NCBI GenBank assembly: GCA_022767515.1
Contig: JALENK010000056.1
Span: 1-36,983 of the forward strand
Direction: 5' to 3'
Length of the DNA stretch: 36,983 nt
Source of the DNA: Clostridium sp.
GTDB lineage: Bacteria > Bacillota > Clostridia > Clostridiales > Clostridiaceae
The notes beneath the pieces are model-generated. The model made no database searches and was not told the origin of the DNA. It was given only the letters and a program-made list of their open reading frames with translations. Made by a program: the position numbers and the translations under genes. Below, piece by piece: positions 724-6,753 of this stretch; position 1 is the first letter of the stretch, and every line of letters begins with the position of its first letter.

Positions 724-1242
724 CTACTTGACAAAACCAAAGTCATTGATTGGCCAAACCTTAAGCCTTGCCTCTGCTTGAATGTCCTCTTTATCAACAT
801 ATGGATTTACCCAATATCTACTATCCTTTGATATTGCTCTATTGTCTCCTAAAAAGAAATATTTACCCTCAGGAACTTCAAAAGTACCATAATAATCTGT
901 GTCATTATTAACTACATAATCTTCTTTTAAATCTTCTCCATTTACATTAACAACACCATTTTGAATTTTTATTTTATCTCCTGGTAAGCCAATTAATCTC
1001 TTAATTAATATTTCTTTTAATTCATCAGAATAAAATACTACAATATCTCCTCTTTCTAAATTTTCAGGATTATAAACTCTAGTTACAAATAAATTGTCAC
1101 CTTTATTTAATGTTGGTACCATAGATGCACTTGGTATGTATACCTTATATAATAAAAACTTATTAATAACAATTGCCAAAACAAATGCTATTACTAAACA
1201 CAATATCCATTCACCAATTTTCTTTTTTTTACTACTGTCCAT
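724..1242 (-). CDS. lepB: Type I signal peptidase
   Basis: Membrane-bound serine/lysine protease that removes signal peptides from exported proteins on the outer face of the membrane. The 172-residue protein has a short lysine-rich cytoplasmic start, one membrane segment at about 13-31, then the catalytic serine in PSASMVPTL (Ser40) and the general-base lysine in IKRLIGLPGD (Lys81). The box YFFLGDNRAISKDSR (about 129-143) is the conserved C-terminal motif of the family. Length and the single N-terminal anchor fit Gram-positive SipS/LepB enzymes. It is a single-gene unit transcribed away from the BMP gene. The start is supported by AAGGAG upstream of the ATG. Clostridia often carry several paralogs, so essentiality of this copy is not implied. 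Confidence 0.95.
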   Translation of the reverse strand: MDSSKKKKIGEWILCLVIAFVLAIVINKFLLYKVYIPSASMVPTLNKGDNLFVTRVYNPENLERGDIVVFYSDELKEILIKRLIGLPGDKIKIQNGVVNVNGEDLKEDYVVNNDTDYYGTFEVPEGKYFFLGDNRAISKDSRYWVNPYVDKEDIQAEARLKVWPINDFGFVK

Positions 1243-1394: not shown

Positions 1395-2594
1395 ATGAGG
1401 AAAAGAGGAATTTCATTATTATTCATAGTGATTTTTGTTTTATCCTTAGTTAGTTGTGGTGTTTCATCTAGTGACATGGATGATTATGTAACTAATAAGG
1501 ATTATTCTAATAAGTCACAAACAGAAAACGTTCAATTAACAGAAACCAAAGCAGGGACAAAAGTCATAAAAAAAGAAAATTTAAAAATAGGAGTGTTATA
1601 CATAGGAAGTGCCCAAGATACTTCAGGGTATACATATGAACACGAGCTTGGAATAAGTCAGATGATAAATAACATAGGACTTCAAAACAATCAAGTTATA
1701 AGAAAAGAAAGCATAAATGATGGGGACAAAAAAGCAATAGATAAGGCTTTAGATGAATGTATCAGTGAGGGGTGTAATGTTATAATTGGAACAAGTTGGG
1801 GATATATGGATGAAATGAGTACATATTCAGAAAAATATCCTGATATATATTTTTCCCATGGTACTGGATACAAAAGTAATGGAAAAAATTTCACAAATTA
1901 TTTTGGAAGAATATATCAAGCAAGATATCTATCAGGAATTGTAGCTGGATTAAAAACAAAAACTAATAAAATAGGATATGTTGCAGCTCAAGGAACAGAT
2001 AACTCAGAGGTAACAGGTGGTATAGATGCCTTTGCATTAGGTGTTGAATCAGTTAATAAAGATGCAAAAATATATGTAAAGGTAACTCATAGCTGGTATG
2101 ACCCTGAGGGTGAGGATAAAGCATCAGTTGAACTTTTAAATAAAGGCTGTGATTGCTTAGCTCAACATTGTGATACAACAGCTCCTCAAGTTGAAGCTGA
2201 GAAACATGGTGTATGGGCAATAGGATATAATTCAGATATGAGTAAAGAAACTCCAAACGCTACTTTAACTTCAGTATTATGGTCTTGGAGTGCATATTAT
2301 ACATCTTATATTCAAAGTATAATAGAAGGAAGCTATGATGGCTCAAATTATTTTGAAGGTATGAATGTTGGACTTGTGGGATTAGCTGATTTATCCGATT
2401 TAAATGATAGTAAAGCAGAAGATTTAGTAAATAAAGCAAAAGAAAAGATTGTAAATGGAAGCTTTAATGTTTTTGATGGTGAGCTAAAAACTAATACTGG
2501 AAAAATTATTGGTGAAAATGGAAAGACATTAGATGATAAAACTATTACAGGTGGTATTGATTGGTATTATCAAAATGTCGAATTAATAGATTAG
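1395..2594 (+). CDS. BMP-family (Med/PnrA-like) substrate-binding lipoprotein
   Basis: Secreted lipoprotein of 399 residues. A signal peptide ends in the lipobox LVSC, with Cys21 as the lipidated residue, followed by a polar linker. The domain from about 60 onward resembles basic membrane protein (BMP) periplasmic-binding proteins: [19 protein letters not shown] at its start, a [10 protein letters not shown] region, and a C-terminal [17 protein letters not shown] segment. Family members (PnrA, BmpA, RbsB-like fold) typically bind nucleosides or similar ligands for an ABC importer. No permease or ATPase gene is next to this one. Instead a chemoreceptor gene begins 10 bp after its stop, so it may present its ligand to that receptor (inference). 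The strong AAGGAGGG site supports the start. The ligand cannot be read from sequence. Confidence 0.85.
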
Positions 2595-2604
2595 AGGTGT
2601 CAGT

Positions 2605-4320
2605 ATGAAAGTTAAAAATATTTCATTAAATAATAAATTATTAATTGTTAATTTGGCATCAGTTATATTATTGGGATTAGTTATAATAGGATTATGTTTC
2701 ACACAAATCCACAAAATAATTTACGATCAAACAAAAAACTCATTAAATGCAACTGCAATGTCTGTAAAAGCTGCTTATGAGCAAAATTCAGGAGATTATT
2801 TTAAAAATACTAACGGAGATATATGGAAAGGTGGATATAATATCTCAAAATCTGAAAAGTTATTAGATTCTATTAAAGAAAGTACTCATATGGATGTTAC
2901 ATTTTTTTATGGAAGTCAACGAATAGTTACATCCCTAAAGGATTCTAATGGCGATAGAATACTTGGTTCTCCAGCAGGAGAAAAAATACAAGAAGAGGTA
3001 TTAAATAAAGGAAATAAATATTTTACTAAATTGGTTTCCATAGATGGAACCCTATATTGTGGATACTATATTCCTATTAATCAAAATAATTCAGAAAATA
3101 TAATTGGAATGATATTTGTTGGAAGTCCTAAAAATGTGATTGATAATCAAATATTATATACTTGTCTTATTATGGCATTGGTTGTAGTAATATTTATCGC
3201 TCTAATAGCTATAATAACAAAGAAAATTTCAAAGAGTATAGTAAATGGAATCAAATCAGGGCTTAAGTCATTAATTGACATTTCTAAAGGAAATCTTACT
3301 ACCGAAATTGATGATAAACTATTAAAAAGAGAAGATGAAACAGGTGAACTTATAAAGGGTACTAAAGAACTTCAAGATAGCTTAAATAGTATCCTTGCAA
3401 CAATTATAAATAATATAAATATTCTAGATAATTCTTCTTATAATATGAATTTAGTTATCAAAAATACTGTTGACGAAATTAATACAATGAAAGAAGCTAT
3501 AAATGATATAAATATTAGTGCAAAAAATGAAGCAAAATCCGCATCTGATGTTGCTGAGAGTATTTTAAATATTGAAAAAATGATAGAAAATACAAACAGT
3601 GAGGCTAAGATACTAACAAATAATGCAGCAAATATGCAATCCTCAATGATTGCTGTAAATAATACCTTAAGTGTTCTTGAAAGTATAAATGATGAAGTTT
3701 TGTCTCAAATAGAGCAAATTCACTCTGATACTATTAATACAAATGAAGCTGTTGAAAAAATTAATAAGGCAGTAGAAATTATAAAAGATATAGCTGAACA
3801 AACAAATCTTTTAGCCTTAAATGCAAGTATTGAAGCTGCAAGAGCAGGAGAAGCTGGAAAAGGATTTTCAGTGGTAGCAGAACAAATTCAAGAACTAGCC
3901 GAGCAATCTACTAATTCTTCAGAAGATATCGCATCAGTTCTTTCAAATTTAAATTCTAACTCAAATAATTCAGTTAATACAATGAAGAAGGTTAGAAATG
4001 TAATAAATAAACAAAGTAAAGATATAGAAAAAACTAAAGAAATATTCAATAGTGTTTCAAACGAAATAGATATCTCTATAAATGGTATAAACGAAATAGA
4101 AAAAGCAATTGATATCTTGATTTTAGAGAAAAACGAAATAGTGAATGCTGTTAATAATTTATCTACTGAAAGTAAAGAAAATGAAACTAATGCTGATATG
4201 GCTTTAAAATCAGTATTAGAGGTATCAGATGGAGTTGAATCTCTTAAAGAGTCTTCTAATAATGTTAAGTCAATTGCTGAAGATATAAATAATAATGTTA
4301 AAGTATTTAAATTAAAATAA
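2605..4320 (+). CDS. Methyl-accepting chemotaxis protein with Cache-type sensor
   Basis: Transmembrane chemoreceptor of 571 residues that controls CheA kinase. Order: membrane segment at about 12-33; an extracellular sensor at about 36-180 resembling a single Cache domain ([13 protein letters not shown] near its start, [14 protein letters not shown] near its end); a second membrane segment at about 182-207; a HAMP region; then a long coiled-coil signalling domain. The hairpin tip is clear: [20 protein letters not shown] followed by [20 protein letters not shown] at about 396-435. No C-terminal CheR/CheB tether pentapeptide is seen. It is cotranscribed with the BMP lipoprotein 10 bp upstream. 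The hydrophilic insert and partner suggest either direct small-ligand sensing or sensing via the lipoprotein. Confidence 0.93.
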
Positions 4321-4334
4321 TAAAAATCTTTTAT

Positions 4335-4380
4335 AATACTATACAATGTCAAGGTATACTCTTTGACTTTGTATAGTATT
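4335..4380 (+). terminator. Strong inverted repeat after the chemoreceptor gene
   Basis: A nearly perfect stem of about 17 bp (arm 1 at 4335-4352 beginning AATACTATACAA, arm 2 at 4363-4380 ending TTGTATAGTATT) with a 10-nt loop starts 15 bp after the stop codon. The following AATTTTAT tract is only moderately T-rich. It is likely the transcript end of the BMP-chemoreceptor operon. Confidence 0.65.
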
Positions 4381-4398
4381 AATTTTATACATAAGTTA

Positions 4399-4767
4399 TT
4401 ATTCACAGAATTTATTAACTTATCCACATTATATCCACATAGTTTTGTTTATTATTATTATTAAATGTTTACATTTTATTATTTTCTATCTATGATTATT
4501 TATTATTCACATATATATTTTTCTTAAATAATTGCTCTAAAATAAAGAAATTTACTTATTTATAATTATTCTATTTTAGACTTATCCACATTATCCACAT
4601 TATTTATGCACAATTTTGTTGATATATTGTGTATCAATCTAAAAACTAAGAATATACTTTATTATGATTATATATATAGTTACTCATTTATATTTTAAAC
4701 AATATCTAGTGCTTTATATACTATTTCTTAGCCTTATTTATCCACATATTCACATTGCTTATCCACA
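4399..4767 (+). other. Cluster of consensus DnaA boxes in a gene-free region
   Basis: The gap 4321-4881 contains no credible gene. Within it, eight exact matches to the DnaA box TTATNCACA lie on the same strand: 4399 (TTATTCACA), 4420, 4582, 4591, 4738 and 4759 (all TTATCCACA), 4503 (TTATTCACA) and 4604 (TTATGCACA). One-mismatch copies sit at 4431 and 4746, and a weaker reverse copy at 4628. The 4582 and 4591 boxes are directly adjacent. The surroundings are extremely AT-rich. This density is what is seen at bacterial origins and at DnaA-titrating clusters such as those of Bacillus subtilis or datA of E. coli. No dnaA or dnaN is in the window, so an extra-origin DnaA-binding cluster is the more likely reading. 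Confidence 0.8.
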
Positions 4768-4812
4768 TATTTCACACTTGTTCCTAAATTTTTAAATATA
4801 TTTTTTATCTAG

Positions 4813-4846
4813 TACCTTGCATTATATAATACCTTGTTATATAATA
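4813..4846 (+). promoter_or_regulatory. Promoter with tandem repeat upstream of the PadR operon
   Basis: TTGCAT (4817-4822) and TATAAT (4840-4845) are spaced by 17 bp. The same stretch is an imperfect 17-bp tandem repeat (units starting TACCTTG at 4813 and 4830), and the perfect palindrome ATTATATAAT lies at 4821-4830 between the promoter boxes. PadR repressors often bind palindromes overlapping their own promoter, so self-repression is likely (inference). Confidence 0.55.
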
Positions 4847-4881
4847 CTACTATACAATATATAATTTAAGGAGGTATACAG

Positions 4882-5211
4882 ATGAATATTCAATTAAAAA
4901 AAGGTGTATTAGAACTTTGTGTCTTATCCATACTTGCAAAAAGAGATTGCTATGGATATGAACTTGTAAACGAACTATCTAAGGATATATCAATTTCTGA
5001 CGGTACTATATATCCAATATTAAGGCGTCTTACTTCTGAGGGTTACTTTACAACTTATCTTCAAGAATCACAGGAAGGACCACCAAGAAAATATTATAGA
5101 CTTACAGAACTTGGATATAAAACTAAAGATATCTTAGAAAAAGAATGGTTTGAATTTCAAGAATCAATCAACAAAATTGTTTTAGGAGGCGATATAAATG
5201 ACAAAAACTGA
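4882..5211 (+). CDS. PadR-family winged-helix regulator
   Basis: Small dimeric DNA-binding repressor of 109 residues. The N-terminal winged helix is typical: GVLELCVLSILAKRDCYGYE, then ISDGTIYPILRRLTSEGYF, where the recognition helix and wing start, and the wing GPPRKYYRLTELG. Length is that of PadR subfamily 2. The ribosome site AAGGAGG supports the ATG. The gene overlaps the next one by 14 bp and leads a three-gene operon with a HAAS-domain membrane protein and a DUF4097 protein, a pairing common in Firmicutes. In such operons PadR is thought to repress the operon and respond to envelope stress or small hydrophobic molecules. The effector is not evident here. Confidence 0.93.
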   Translation: MNIQLKKGVLELCVLSILAKRDCYGYELVNELSKDISISDGTIYPILRRLTSEGYFTTYLQESQEGPPRKYYRLTELGYKTKDILEKEWFEFQESINKIVLGGDINDKN

Positions 5212-5797
5212 ATTTTTTAATATTATTCGTAACGGACTTAAAGATTTCCCAGAAAATGAAGTAAATGACATACTTTATGATTATGAAGAACATTTTGCAA
5301 GTGGATTAAATGATGGAAAGACAGTTGAAGAAATAATAGAAGAACTGGGGAATCCATATGATATTGTTGAACAATATAAAAGCACAAATTCATATAGCAT
5401 AGATCAAAAGTCTAAATCAACTTCAAGCTTAACAAATACTACTATTATTATATTAATACTAGTTGGTATTATTTGTTTCCCTGCTATTACTGGTTTAGGT
5501 GGAATTATTATAGGCATTATTGCTACTTTATGCTTTGTTCCACTAGGTTTTACTTTTGCTGGAATCGGAATACTGTTAGGCGATTTAGGTGTTTCTGTTT
5601 TAGGTATTGTAAATCTACCTGACTTCATTACTGATTTTCCTACTAGTTCTGTTATTTTATTTACAATAGGCTCTTTACTTAGTACTATATTAGGAATAAT
5701 TATTTCAGTATATTTAGTTAAAGCCTTTATTATATTGATAAAAAAGATAATTGAATTATTCAAAGAAAAATCAAAAAAGGAGGATGTTAATATATGA
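5198..5797 (+). CDS. HAAS (DUF1700) domain membrane protein
   Basis: Protein of 199 residues. Residues 1-65 form the helical HAAS/DUF1700 domain (KTEFFNIIRNGLKDFPENE, then YDYEEHFASGLNDGKT and IIEELGNPYDIVEQY). Behind a serine/threonine-rich linker come three or four hydrophobic segments at about 79-100, 100-130 and 150-178, and a lysine-rich cytoplasmic tail. HAAS-domain proteins accompany PadR regulators and are proposed to couple membrane state to the regulator. The start is set by AGGAGG upstream of ATG 5198, inside the end of the padR-like gene. It overlaps the next gene by 4 bp, so translation is probably coupled. Molecular function is not established. Confidence 0.85.
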   Translation: MTKTEFFNIIRNGLKDFPENEVNDILYDYEEHFASGLNDGKTVEEIIEELGNPYDIVEQYKSTNSYSIDQKSKSTSSLTNTTIIILILVGIICFPAITGLGGIIIGIIATLCFVPLGFTFAGIGILLGDLGVSVLGIVNLPDFITDFPTSSVILFTIGSLLSTILGIIISVYLVKAFIILIKKIIELFKEKSKKEDVNI

Positions 5798-6753
5798 AAA
5801 AGAAATTTATGAGTACAAAAATTAAGATTACTATTATAAGTCTGTTAATAGCTATAATTGGGTGTTATTCTACTAGTGCTATTATTTTATACAATAGTGA
5901 CTATAAACTTTCTAATTATTTAGATGATGATTTTGAATTTGATTTTGATTTTTCTGATGGTATATTTAGTTTCAAAAGCTTTAATAAATCCTTTGGAACA
6001 TTAACTCTTCCTTATGAAGACTCATTAAAAGATATCAAGGTTGATACCTCTTCTGCTAATACAGAAATAATCTTTGATGATACTCAAGAAATCAAAGTAG
6101 ATATTTCAGGTAATTTTATAAAATCATACGATTATAAAAATGCATTATATGAATTTAAAATAGATGAAAACACTTTAAAAATAACTACTAATGACAAATC
6201 CTCAATTGTAAAGAACTTAGAATTAAAGGTTCATATACCTTCAAAATACAAAGATAATTTAATTATGTATTCTAGCAGTGGAGATATTAAGTTAAATAAT
6301 TCTACCTTAAATAATATAAGTTTACAAACAAGTAGTGGTGATATAAAGGCAAATAATAAGATTACCTGCAATGAGATATCTATTAAAGCTTCTAGTGGTA
6401 AAATTGATTTTTCAGATTTAACATCATCTGTAACAAACTTTACAGCATCAAGTGGAGATATTGACTTAAAGGGAACTTTAGGTAAATTATCACTTGAAAC
6501 TTCATCTGGAGAAATAGAGCTTGATTGCCTAAATGATTTAGAAAACAATTCAAAACTTACATCAAGTTCTGGTGATATTAAAATGAATTTAAAAAATATA
6601 AATAGCTATACTATAAACTATTCTACTAGTTCAGGTAACTTAAAATGTGATTATGATTATAATAAAAAGGATAAACATTCATATACAATAGGAAATGGTT
6701 CTAGTTTAATTGATATAACAACTTCTAGTGGTGATTTAGAAATAAATAATTAA
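5794..6753 (+). CDS. DUF4097 beta-helix-type envelope protein
   Basis: Protein of 319 residues with an N-terminal membrane anchor or signal segment at about 9-30, then an acidic stretch, then a DUF4097 region. The C-terminal half carries about eight copies of a short motif of the form (S/T/A)SSG(D/E/K/N)(I/L), for example SSSGDIK, TSSGDIK, ASSGDID and TSSGEIE, spaced by roughly 20 residues, as expected for rungs of a right-handed beta-helix. This domain follows PadR and HAAS genes in many Firmicutes; related proteins such as LiaX take part in responses to membrane-acting antimicrobials in enterococci. Here that role is only inferred. It overlaps the HAAS gene by 4 bp and has its own AAAGGAGG site. 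Confidence 0.85.
   Translation: MKKKFMSTKIKITIISLLIAIIGCYSTSAIILYNSDYKLSNYLDDDFEFDFDFSDGIFSFKSFNKSFGTLTLPYEDSLKDIKVDTSSANTEIIFDDTQEIKVDISGNFIKSYDYKNALYEFKIDENTLKITTNDKSSIVKNLELKVHIPSKYKDNLIMYSSSGDIKLNNSTLNNISLQTSSGDIKANNKITCNEISIKASSGKIDFSDLTSSVTNFTASSGDIDLKGTLGKLSLETSSGEIELDCLNDLENNSKLTSSSGDIKMNLKNINSYTINYSTSSGNLKCDYDYNKKDKHSYTIGNGSSLIDITTSSGDLEINN

Follow-up and report, generated by a model that had tools for sequence, protein, structure and literature searches.

Clusters of DnaA boxes lying outside oriC are a known kind of chromosomal element. Those of Bacillus subtilis (DnaA-box clusters, DBCs) are called 'oriC-proximal' in the title of a 2012 paper by Okumura. According to two papers, removal of six such clusters from B. 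subtilis results in early initiation (PMC5295017, PMC13220808), and the first also states that the B. subtilis clusters are without a significant role in initiation. In E. coli, a further paper places datA at a relative distance of 0.10 from oriC and reports that transcription through datA is harmful to it (PMC5010248). datA is described as working with IHF to drive DnaA-ATP hydrolysis. The bipartite oriC of clostridia has box clusters around dnaA, and the C. difficile origin paper describes knowledge of replication in that organism as limited.

A stretch of 36,983 nucleotides from a Clostridium genome (here termed the window) was found to contain a DnaA-box cluster. As in the DBCs, several consensus boxes lie close together (within a few hundred bp) and outside oriC. 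A likeness to DBCs in origin-proximal placement would be tentative: the distance to dnaA is 6–15% of the chromosome in 12 relatives, the window's own genome being a draft. However, the Clostridium locus differs in its recurrent phasing, its genus-wide conservation and the lack of a detectable YabA in the genus, the comparison being one of kind. The locus is also like datA in being non-coding, in having few boxes and in its conserved relative distance to oriC (0.06–0.15 in the 12 relatives, set against the value given for datA); the action with IHF is described for datA, and homology is not claimed. The box consensus is identical to that given for the bipartite clostridial oriC, but the locus is not next to dnaA, and its 13-bp tandem pair was found near dnaA only in one genome (G044). 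The preliminary description of this DNA knew of no such site at this locus, and in the open literature on DnaA boxes, titration and ChIP-seq in Clostridium no report of the cluster was found.

Composition and spacing of the box cluster

The eight exact boxes start at 4399, 4420, 4503, 4582, 4591, 4604, 4738 and 4759, all on the plus strand (Table 1). Eight boxes, five of them TTATCCACA, with two near matches in a gene-free stretch of about 560 bp, had been claimed in the preliminary description, and the pattern search of the window bore this out: five of the eight boxes have the form TTATCCACA, one-mismatch boxes on the plus strand lie within the cluster at 4431 and 4746, and the interval that separates padR from the chemoreceptor gene (4321–4881, here the gap) measures 561 bp with 19% G+C. 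Two further one-mismatch boxes were found in the gap, at 4385 just outside the cluster range and at 4628 on the minus strand. The rest of the window has only one further exact box (36627, minus strand). A single orientation had also been described, which holds for the window's genome (8/8) but not across the 64 genomes counted by script, where 254 of 311 boxes share a strand and 57 have the opposite orientation.

Table 1. Features of the window and of one further box cluster in the same genome.
Feature	Coordinates	Strand	Remarks
Signal peptidase gene (Peptidase_S26)	724..1242	-	same-side landmark in several relatives
Bmp-type lipoprotein gene	1395-2594		
Chemoreceptor gene (sCache_3_3 + MCPsignal)	2605..4320	+	
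Inverted repeat with terminator-like hairpin	4335..4380	+	scan match 4348-4367; wider repeat by inspection
DnaA-box cluster, eight exact TTATNCACA boxes	4399..4767	+	pattern search of window
Box pair TTATTCACA, TTATCCACA, spaced 21 bp	4399..4428	+	near match next, at 4431
Lone box TTATTCACA	4503..4511	+	pattern search
Triple module 0/9/22 bp: TTATCCACA, TTATCCACA, TTATGCACA	4582..4612	+	
Second module, TTATCCACA pair spaced 21 bp	4738..4767	+	near match at 4746
padR regulator gene	4882..5211	+	
HAAS gene	5198-5797		downstream of padR
DUF4097 gene	5794-6753		follows HAAS gene
addA box cluster in window's genome	L002:4540-4700		G000 contig C18

Most of the 311 boxes (246) have C at the free position, and same-strand spacings peak at 13 bp (34 cases), 22 bp (20), 9 bp (16), 21 bp (14) and 12 bp (8). 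This shared phase signature fits a putative 0/9/22 triple, one member of which has often decayed, followed by a 12- or 21-bp pair. On this pattern the window would have its triple at 4582/4591/4604, the second pair at 4738/4759 and an extra 21-bp pair at 4399/4420. In the window the second pair follows the triple at a distance of 134 bp; several relatives have ~190 bp here, and the distance reaches ~400 bp. Of the 64 genomes, 51 contain a pair spaced 9, 13 or 22 bp; the spacings 9, 12, 13, 21 and 22 are all missing from G026, G053 and G042. The 13-bp tandem pair was found at 37 places in 35 of the 68 genus genomes, with none for the reversed control; by coordinates, 34 of these places are this locus and the remaining three are all in G044. 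The 13-bp pair, which lies within the triple, is a marker of the locus in roughly half of the 68 genomes. G044 also has a second dnaA-like gene (C25:797-2128, 45% identity) with a 13-bp box pair ~165 bases away.

Conservation in the genus Clostridium

The cluster is a non-coding locus, with predicted DnaA binding, that is kept in most of the genus Clostridium. In a sample of 68 genus genomes, which includes the window's genome (G000), at least three boxes are present at the syntenic place in 62, with fewer in four and two outside the test (G044, with 156 bases from the 224-aa gene to the contig end, and G049, in which the 224-aa gene was not found). The check for conservation in relatives set by the preliminary description was thus passed. 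The scripted count gave at least three boxes in 61 of 64 genomes and at least four in 58, the window (eight boxes) and G011 (seven) included. Addition by eye of G012, which has six boxes in 139 bp between a 234-aa gene and a signal peptidase gene and one further box within the 234-aa gene, brings the former count to 62 of 65. Low counts were found in G046 and G047 (two boxes each), G042 (no box beside the 224-aa gene) and G066 (no box in 3.6 kb, and none beside the 224-aa gene).

In most relatives the place is marked by one of two genes. Among 41 genomes with sfsA at 60% identity or more, the upstream kilobases (768 bases in one genome) have 193 boxes compared with six reversed-pattern matches, and three or more boxes are present in 39. 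Upstream of the 224-aa gene, counted in the 22 genomes without a high-identity sfsA here (the gene lies near sfsA in others), there are 103 boxes and no reversed-pattern match, with at least three boxes in 20. The sfsA copies of 47–53% identity (n = 17) have a single box in all their upstream kilobases together (17 kb), and of the 16 of these genomes also counted at the 224-aa gene, 15 show three or more boxes there, which indicates that the boxes follow the place and not sfsA. G022, with no box at its sfsA, was scored at the 224-aa gene. G000 and G012 retain the boxes though neither sfsA nor the 224-aa gene was found in either genome; both genes are missing from the local stretch, and their wider absence is uncertain in genomes that are 88.75% and 83% complete, respectively.

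In the window, the lipoprotein and chemoreceptor genes (1395–4320) occupy the slot of sfsA or the 224-aa gene in relatives; flanked by the signal peptidase gene and the cluster, this segment appears to have been replaced locally. Close padR orthologues (70–83% identity) are present in five of the 67 other genus genomes, all five having sfsA on the left instead of the chemoreceptor gene and 4–6 boxes in the kilobase upstream of sfsA. The order in the window, with the signal peptidase gene on the minus strand at left and the HAAS operon on the plus strand at right, is similar to that of G008, for example.

In a collection of 80 named 224-aa-gene loci, many of which overlap the genus genomes and four of which have fewer than 300 bases on the tested side, 47 have at least three boxes within 500 bp upstream; neither the reversed pattern (0/80) nor the other side of the 224-aa gene (0/80) gave such a locus. 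Boxed loci include those of C. beijerinckii, C. puniceum, C. paraputrificum, C. tertium, C. celatum, C. neonatale and C. manihotivorum. None or one box in 6 kb was found in C. gasigenes, C. intestinale, C. polynesiense, C. luticellarii and Hathewaya massiliensis, the first three of these having none. A direct search of named relatives with the DUF4097 protein gave no match. In five groups chosen by hand (34 of the 64 genomes), with the boxes defined on a single sequence and identity scored on the remaining ones, the box columns are 0.85–0.97 identical compared with 0.55–0.75 for other columns.

Neighbouring genes, chromosomal position and alternative explanations

DnaA is known to regulate transcription at some promoters. 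Acting from these boxes, it could control the padR/HAAS-DUF4097 operon or the left gene, be it sfsA or the 224-aa gene, and so tie their expression to the state of replication. This alternative is considered unlikely but keeps some weight for three reasons: in 62 of 64 genomes the left gene has its start at the cluster (by construction of the sampling), a padR- or HAAS-type operon is the commonest right-hand neighbour (26 of the 51 genomes in which the right-hand gene could be classified, 13 being unclassified), and inspection of one group showed a promoter-like TTGACA-17-ATATAT on the sfsA strand between its modules. A regulatory role may therefore be conserved in part. In the window, padR starts 114 bp past the last box and TTGCAT-17-TATAAT is present by inspection at 4817–4845; a promoter scan gave five sites, fewer than the shuffles (mean 9.5), and the padR promoter was not among them.

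However, the neighbours differ between genomes. At the left, sfsA is found in 40 of the 64 genomes and the 224-aa gene in 22, with a nudix-like gene in G011 and the convergent chemoreceptor gene in the window; G012 has a short ORF and a signal peptidase gene (labels, as for the nudix-like gene, by inspection). Ten kinds of gene occur as the nearest classified right-hand neighbour, a number that falls to nine when padR and HAAS are counted as a single operon; in 22 of the 51 genomes this neighbour is neither padR- nor HAAS-type and has its 3' end toward the cluster. No single gene stands beside the boxes throughout as a shared target, the commonest being sfsA at left (40/64) and the padR/HAAS type at right (26/51), and the low-identity sfsA copies elsewhere are nearly boxless. 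Control of one neighbouring gene is thus unlikely as the common role. The DnaA-dependent regulation of the PadR operon offered by the preliminary description finds no support as such a role either, with a close padR orthologue beside the cluster in only six of 68 genomes. Two farther padR homologues (57 and 49% identity) have no box within 5 kb. DnaA may nevertheless have a role in padR expression in the window's own genome.

The cluster and dnaA share a contig in 12 near-complete chromosomes, all from relatives, the window's own genome being a draft. There the cluster lies 294–555 kb from dnaA, on the same arm and always on its 5' side, at 6.2–15.2% of the chromosome (0.062–0.152; 12/12 in each case). 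This conserved place could partly mirror general synteny. It would also suit a box cluster serving chromosome architecture or segregation, in which DnaA and another protein would bridge or anchor the DNA and initiation control would be secondary. Besides the place near the origin on one arm, parts of the spacer between the modules are conserved in one group; however, no site for another protein was noticed, and an Rfam scan of 4200–5000 was empty at E ≤ 1. A primarily architectural function is regarded as improbable.

The density of consensus boxes in an AT-rich stretch might suggest a second or ectopic replication origin. G000 is a draft of 2.17 Mb in 113 contigs, of which the window is C53, and the only dnaA match at E ≤ 1e-100 in this genome is on contig C47, outside the window, where dnaA is flanked by dnaN and recF on one side and by rnpA on the opposite side (names by reading translations) and seven boxes flanking dnaA on both sides, which identifies oriC there. 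GC skew in 1-kb windows is −0.04 at 4001–5000, flanked by +0.14 and +0.15, and no lasting change of sign was detected at the cluster; the sustained sign changes, near 1 kb and 9 kb, track gene strand. As oriC was found on C47, the skew does not change lastingly at the cluster and the locus lies inside one arm in the 12 chromosomes, a second origin was rejected as very improbable. The earlier statement that dnaA and dnaN are not in view was upheld, and the cluster is not oriC.

Boxes are not enriched in the genome as a whole (159, of which 100 were listed one by one, compared with 154 reversed-pattern matches), and it is therefore the clustering that is the signal. At 159 boxes per 2,167,762 bases, 0.027 would be expected in 369 bp (Poisson P ~7e-18), and none of 20,000 dinucleotide shuffles of the gap had more than three, in agreement with the earlier estimate of well below one. 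Chance or an AT-rich artefact, favoured by the 19% G+C of the gap and by nothing else, is contradicted by the shuffles, the genome-wide density and the conservation, and its likelihood is negligible.

Proposed role and further box groups

The best explanation of the locus is probably that given in the preliminary description, namely a site for DnaA titration or initiation control like the clusters of B. subtilis or datA. Both conditions that the preliminary description set against that reading were cleared, relatives having kept the cluster and oriC lying elsewhere; the role itself is one that we infer. As a chromosomal site drawing DnaA away from oriC, the locus would load DnaA on the 0/9/22 triple, from which it might spread or loop to the second pair. 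Early replication of the site in each round would double its dose while oriC is still fresh, so that free DnaA would drop and re-initiation would be delayed. The hairpin upstream of the first box could end chemoreceptor transcription ahead of it, and such isolation of the boxes is at least consistent with a titration site, as transcription through datA is described as detrimental to it in E. coli.

YabA acts as a brake on initiation in B. subtilis. No YabA above the Pfam cut-off was found in any of the 68 genomes, the B. subtilis control being positive; G063 has a weak match below the cut-off (E 4.9e-4). For C. difficile, one paper states that a YabA or Rok homologue was not identified (PMC7561715). 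As YabA was not found, a brake provided by the cluster may matter more in this genus.

A second box cluster was found inside the coding sequence of addA. This gene was matched in 65 of the 68 genomes, and among the best 30 of the 65 loci (L125-L154) three or more boxes within 300 bp are present in 13. The 29 genes counted (G062, with an internal stop, was omitted) have 71 boxes, compared with 5.4 expected from synonymous-codon shuffles and six reversed-pattern matches; 66 of the 71 lie at codons 944–1006, and six of the 29 genes are boxless. addA starts 22–48 kb from dnaA in the 12 near-complete chromosomes. Five of these had addA counted, three with no box, one with one and one with two, which indicates that the dense addA clusters belong to other genomes.

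In G000, the same-strand pairs at ≤30 bp that lie outside the cluster are confined to addA and to a single site on each of two other contigs. Contig C49 (L003:4039-4182) has three TTATCCACA in 144 bp in a short-chain dehydrogenase-like gene adjoining a feoB-like gene (by inspection), and contig C80 (L347:3452-3484) has an intergenic 9-bp tandem pair with an opposed box nearby. In other Clostridium genomes, box clusters with a 21-bp pair were seen in a 3093-aa ORF (L222:6783-6983) and, in another genome, in a CspB-type subtilase gene (L223:6801-7070). As the 21-bp pair is thus found in coding genes too, including addA, it is not by itself specific to the locus.

A bolder reading, considered doubtful, is that dispersed lineage-specific DnaA loci stand in for YabA in Clostridium, the left-arm site being joined by the addA site in a subclade, and that the triple and the distant pair would assemble a DnaA complex which alters the activity of DnaA and not just its free amount.

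Once-per-cycle replication has been little studied in clostridia, and the genus Clostridium has no recognisable YabA. A DnaA-box locus retained at one place across most of this genus, with a clear architecture and natural variants, offers a short target for the study of how box dosage bears on the timing of initiation beyond the two model species.
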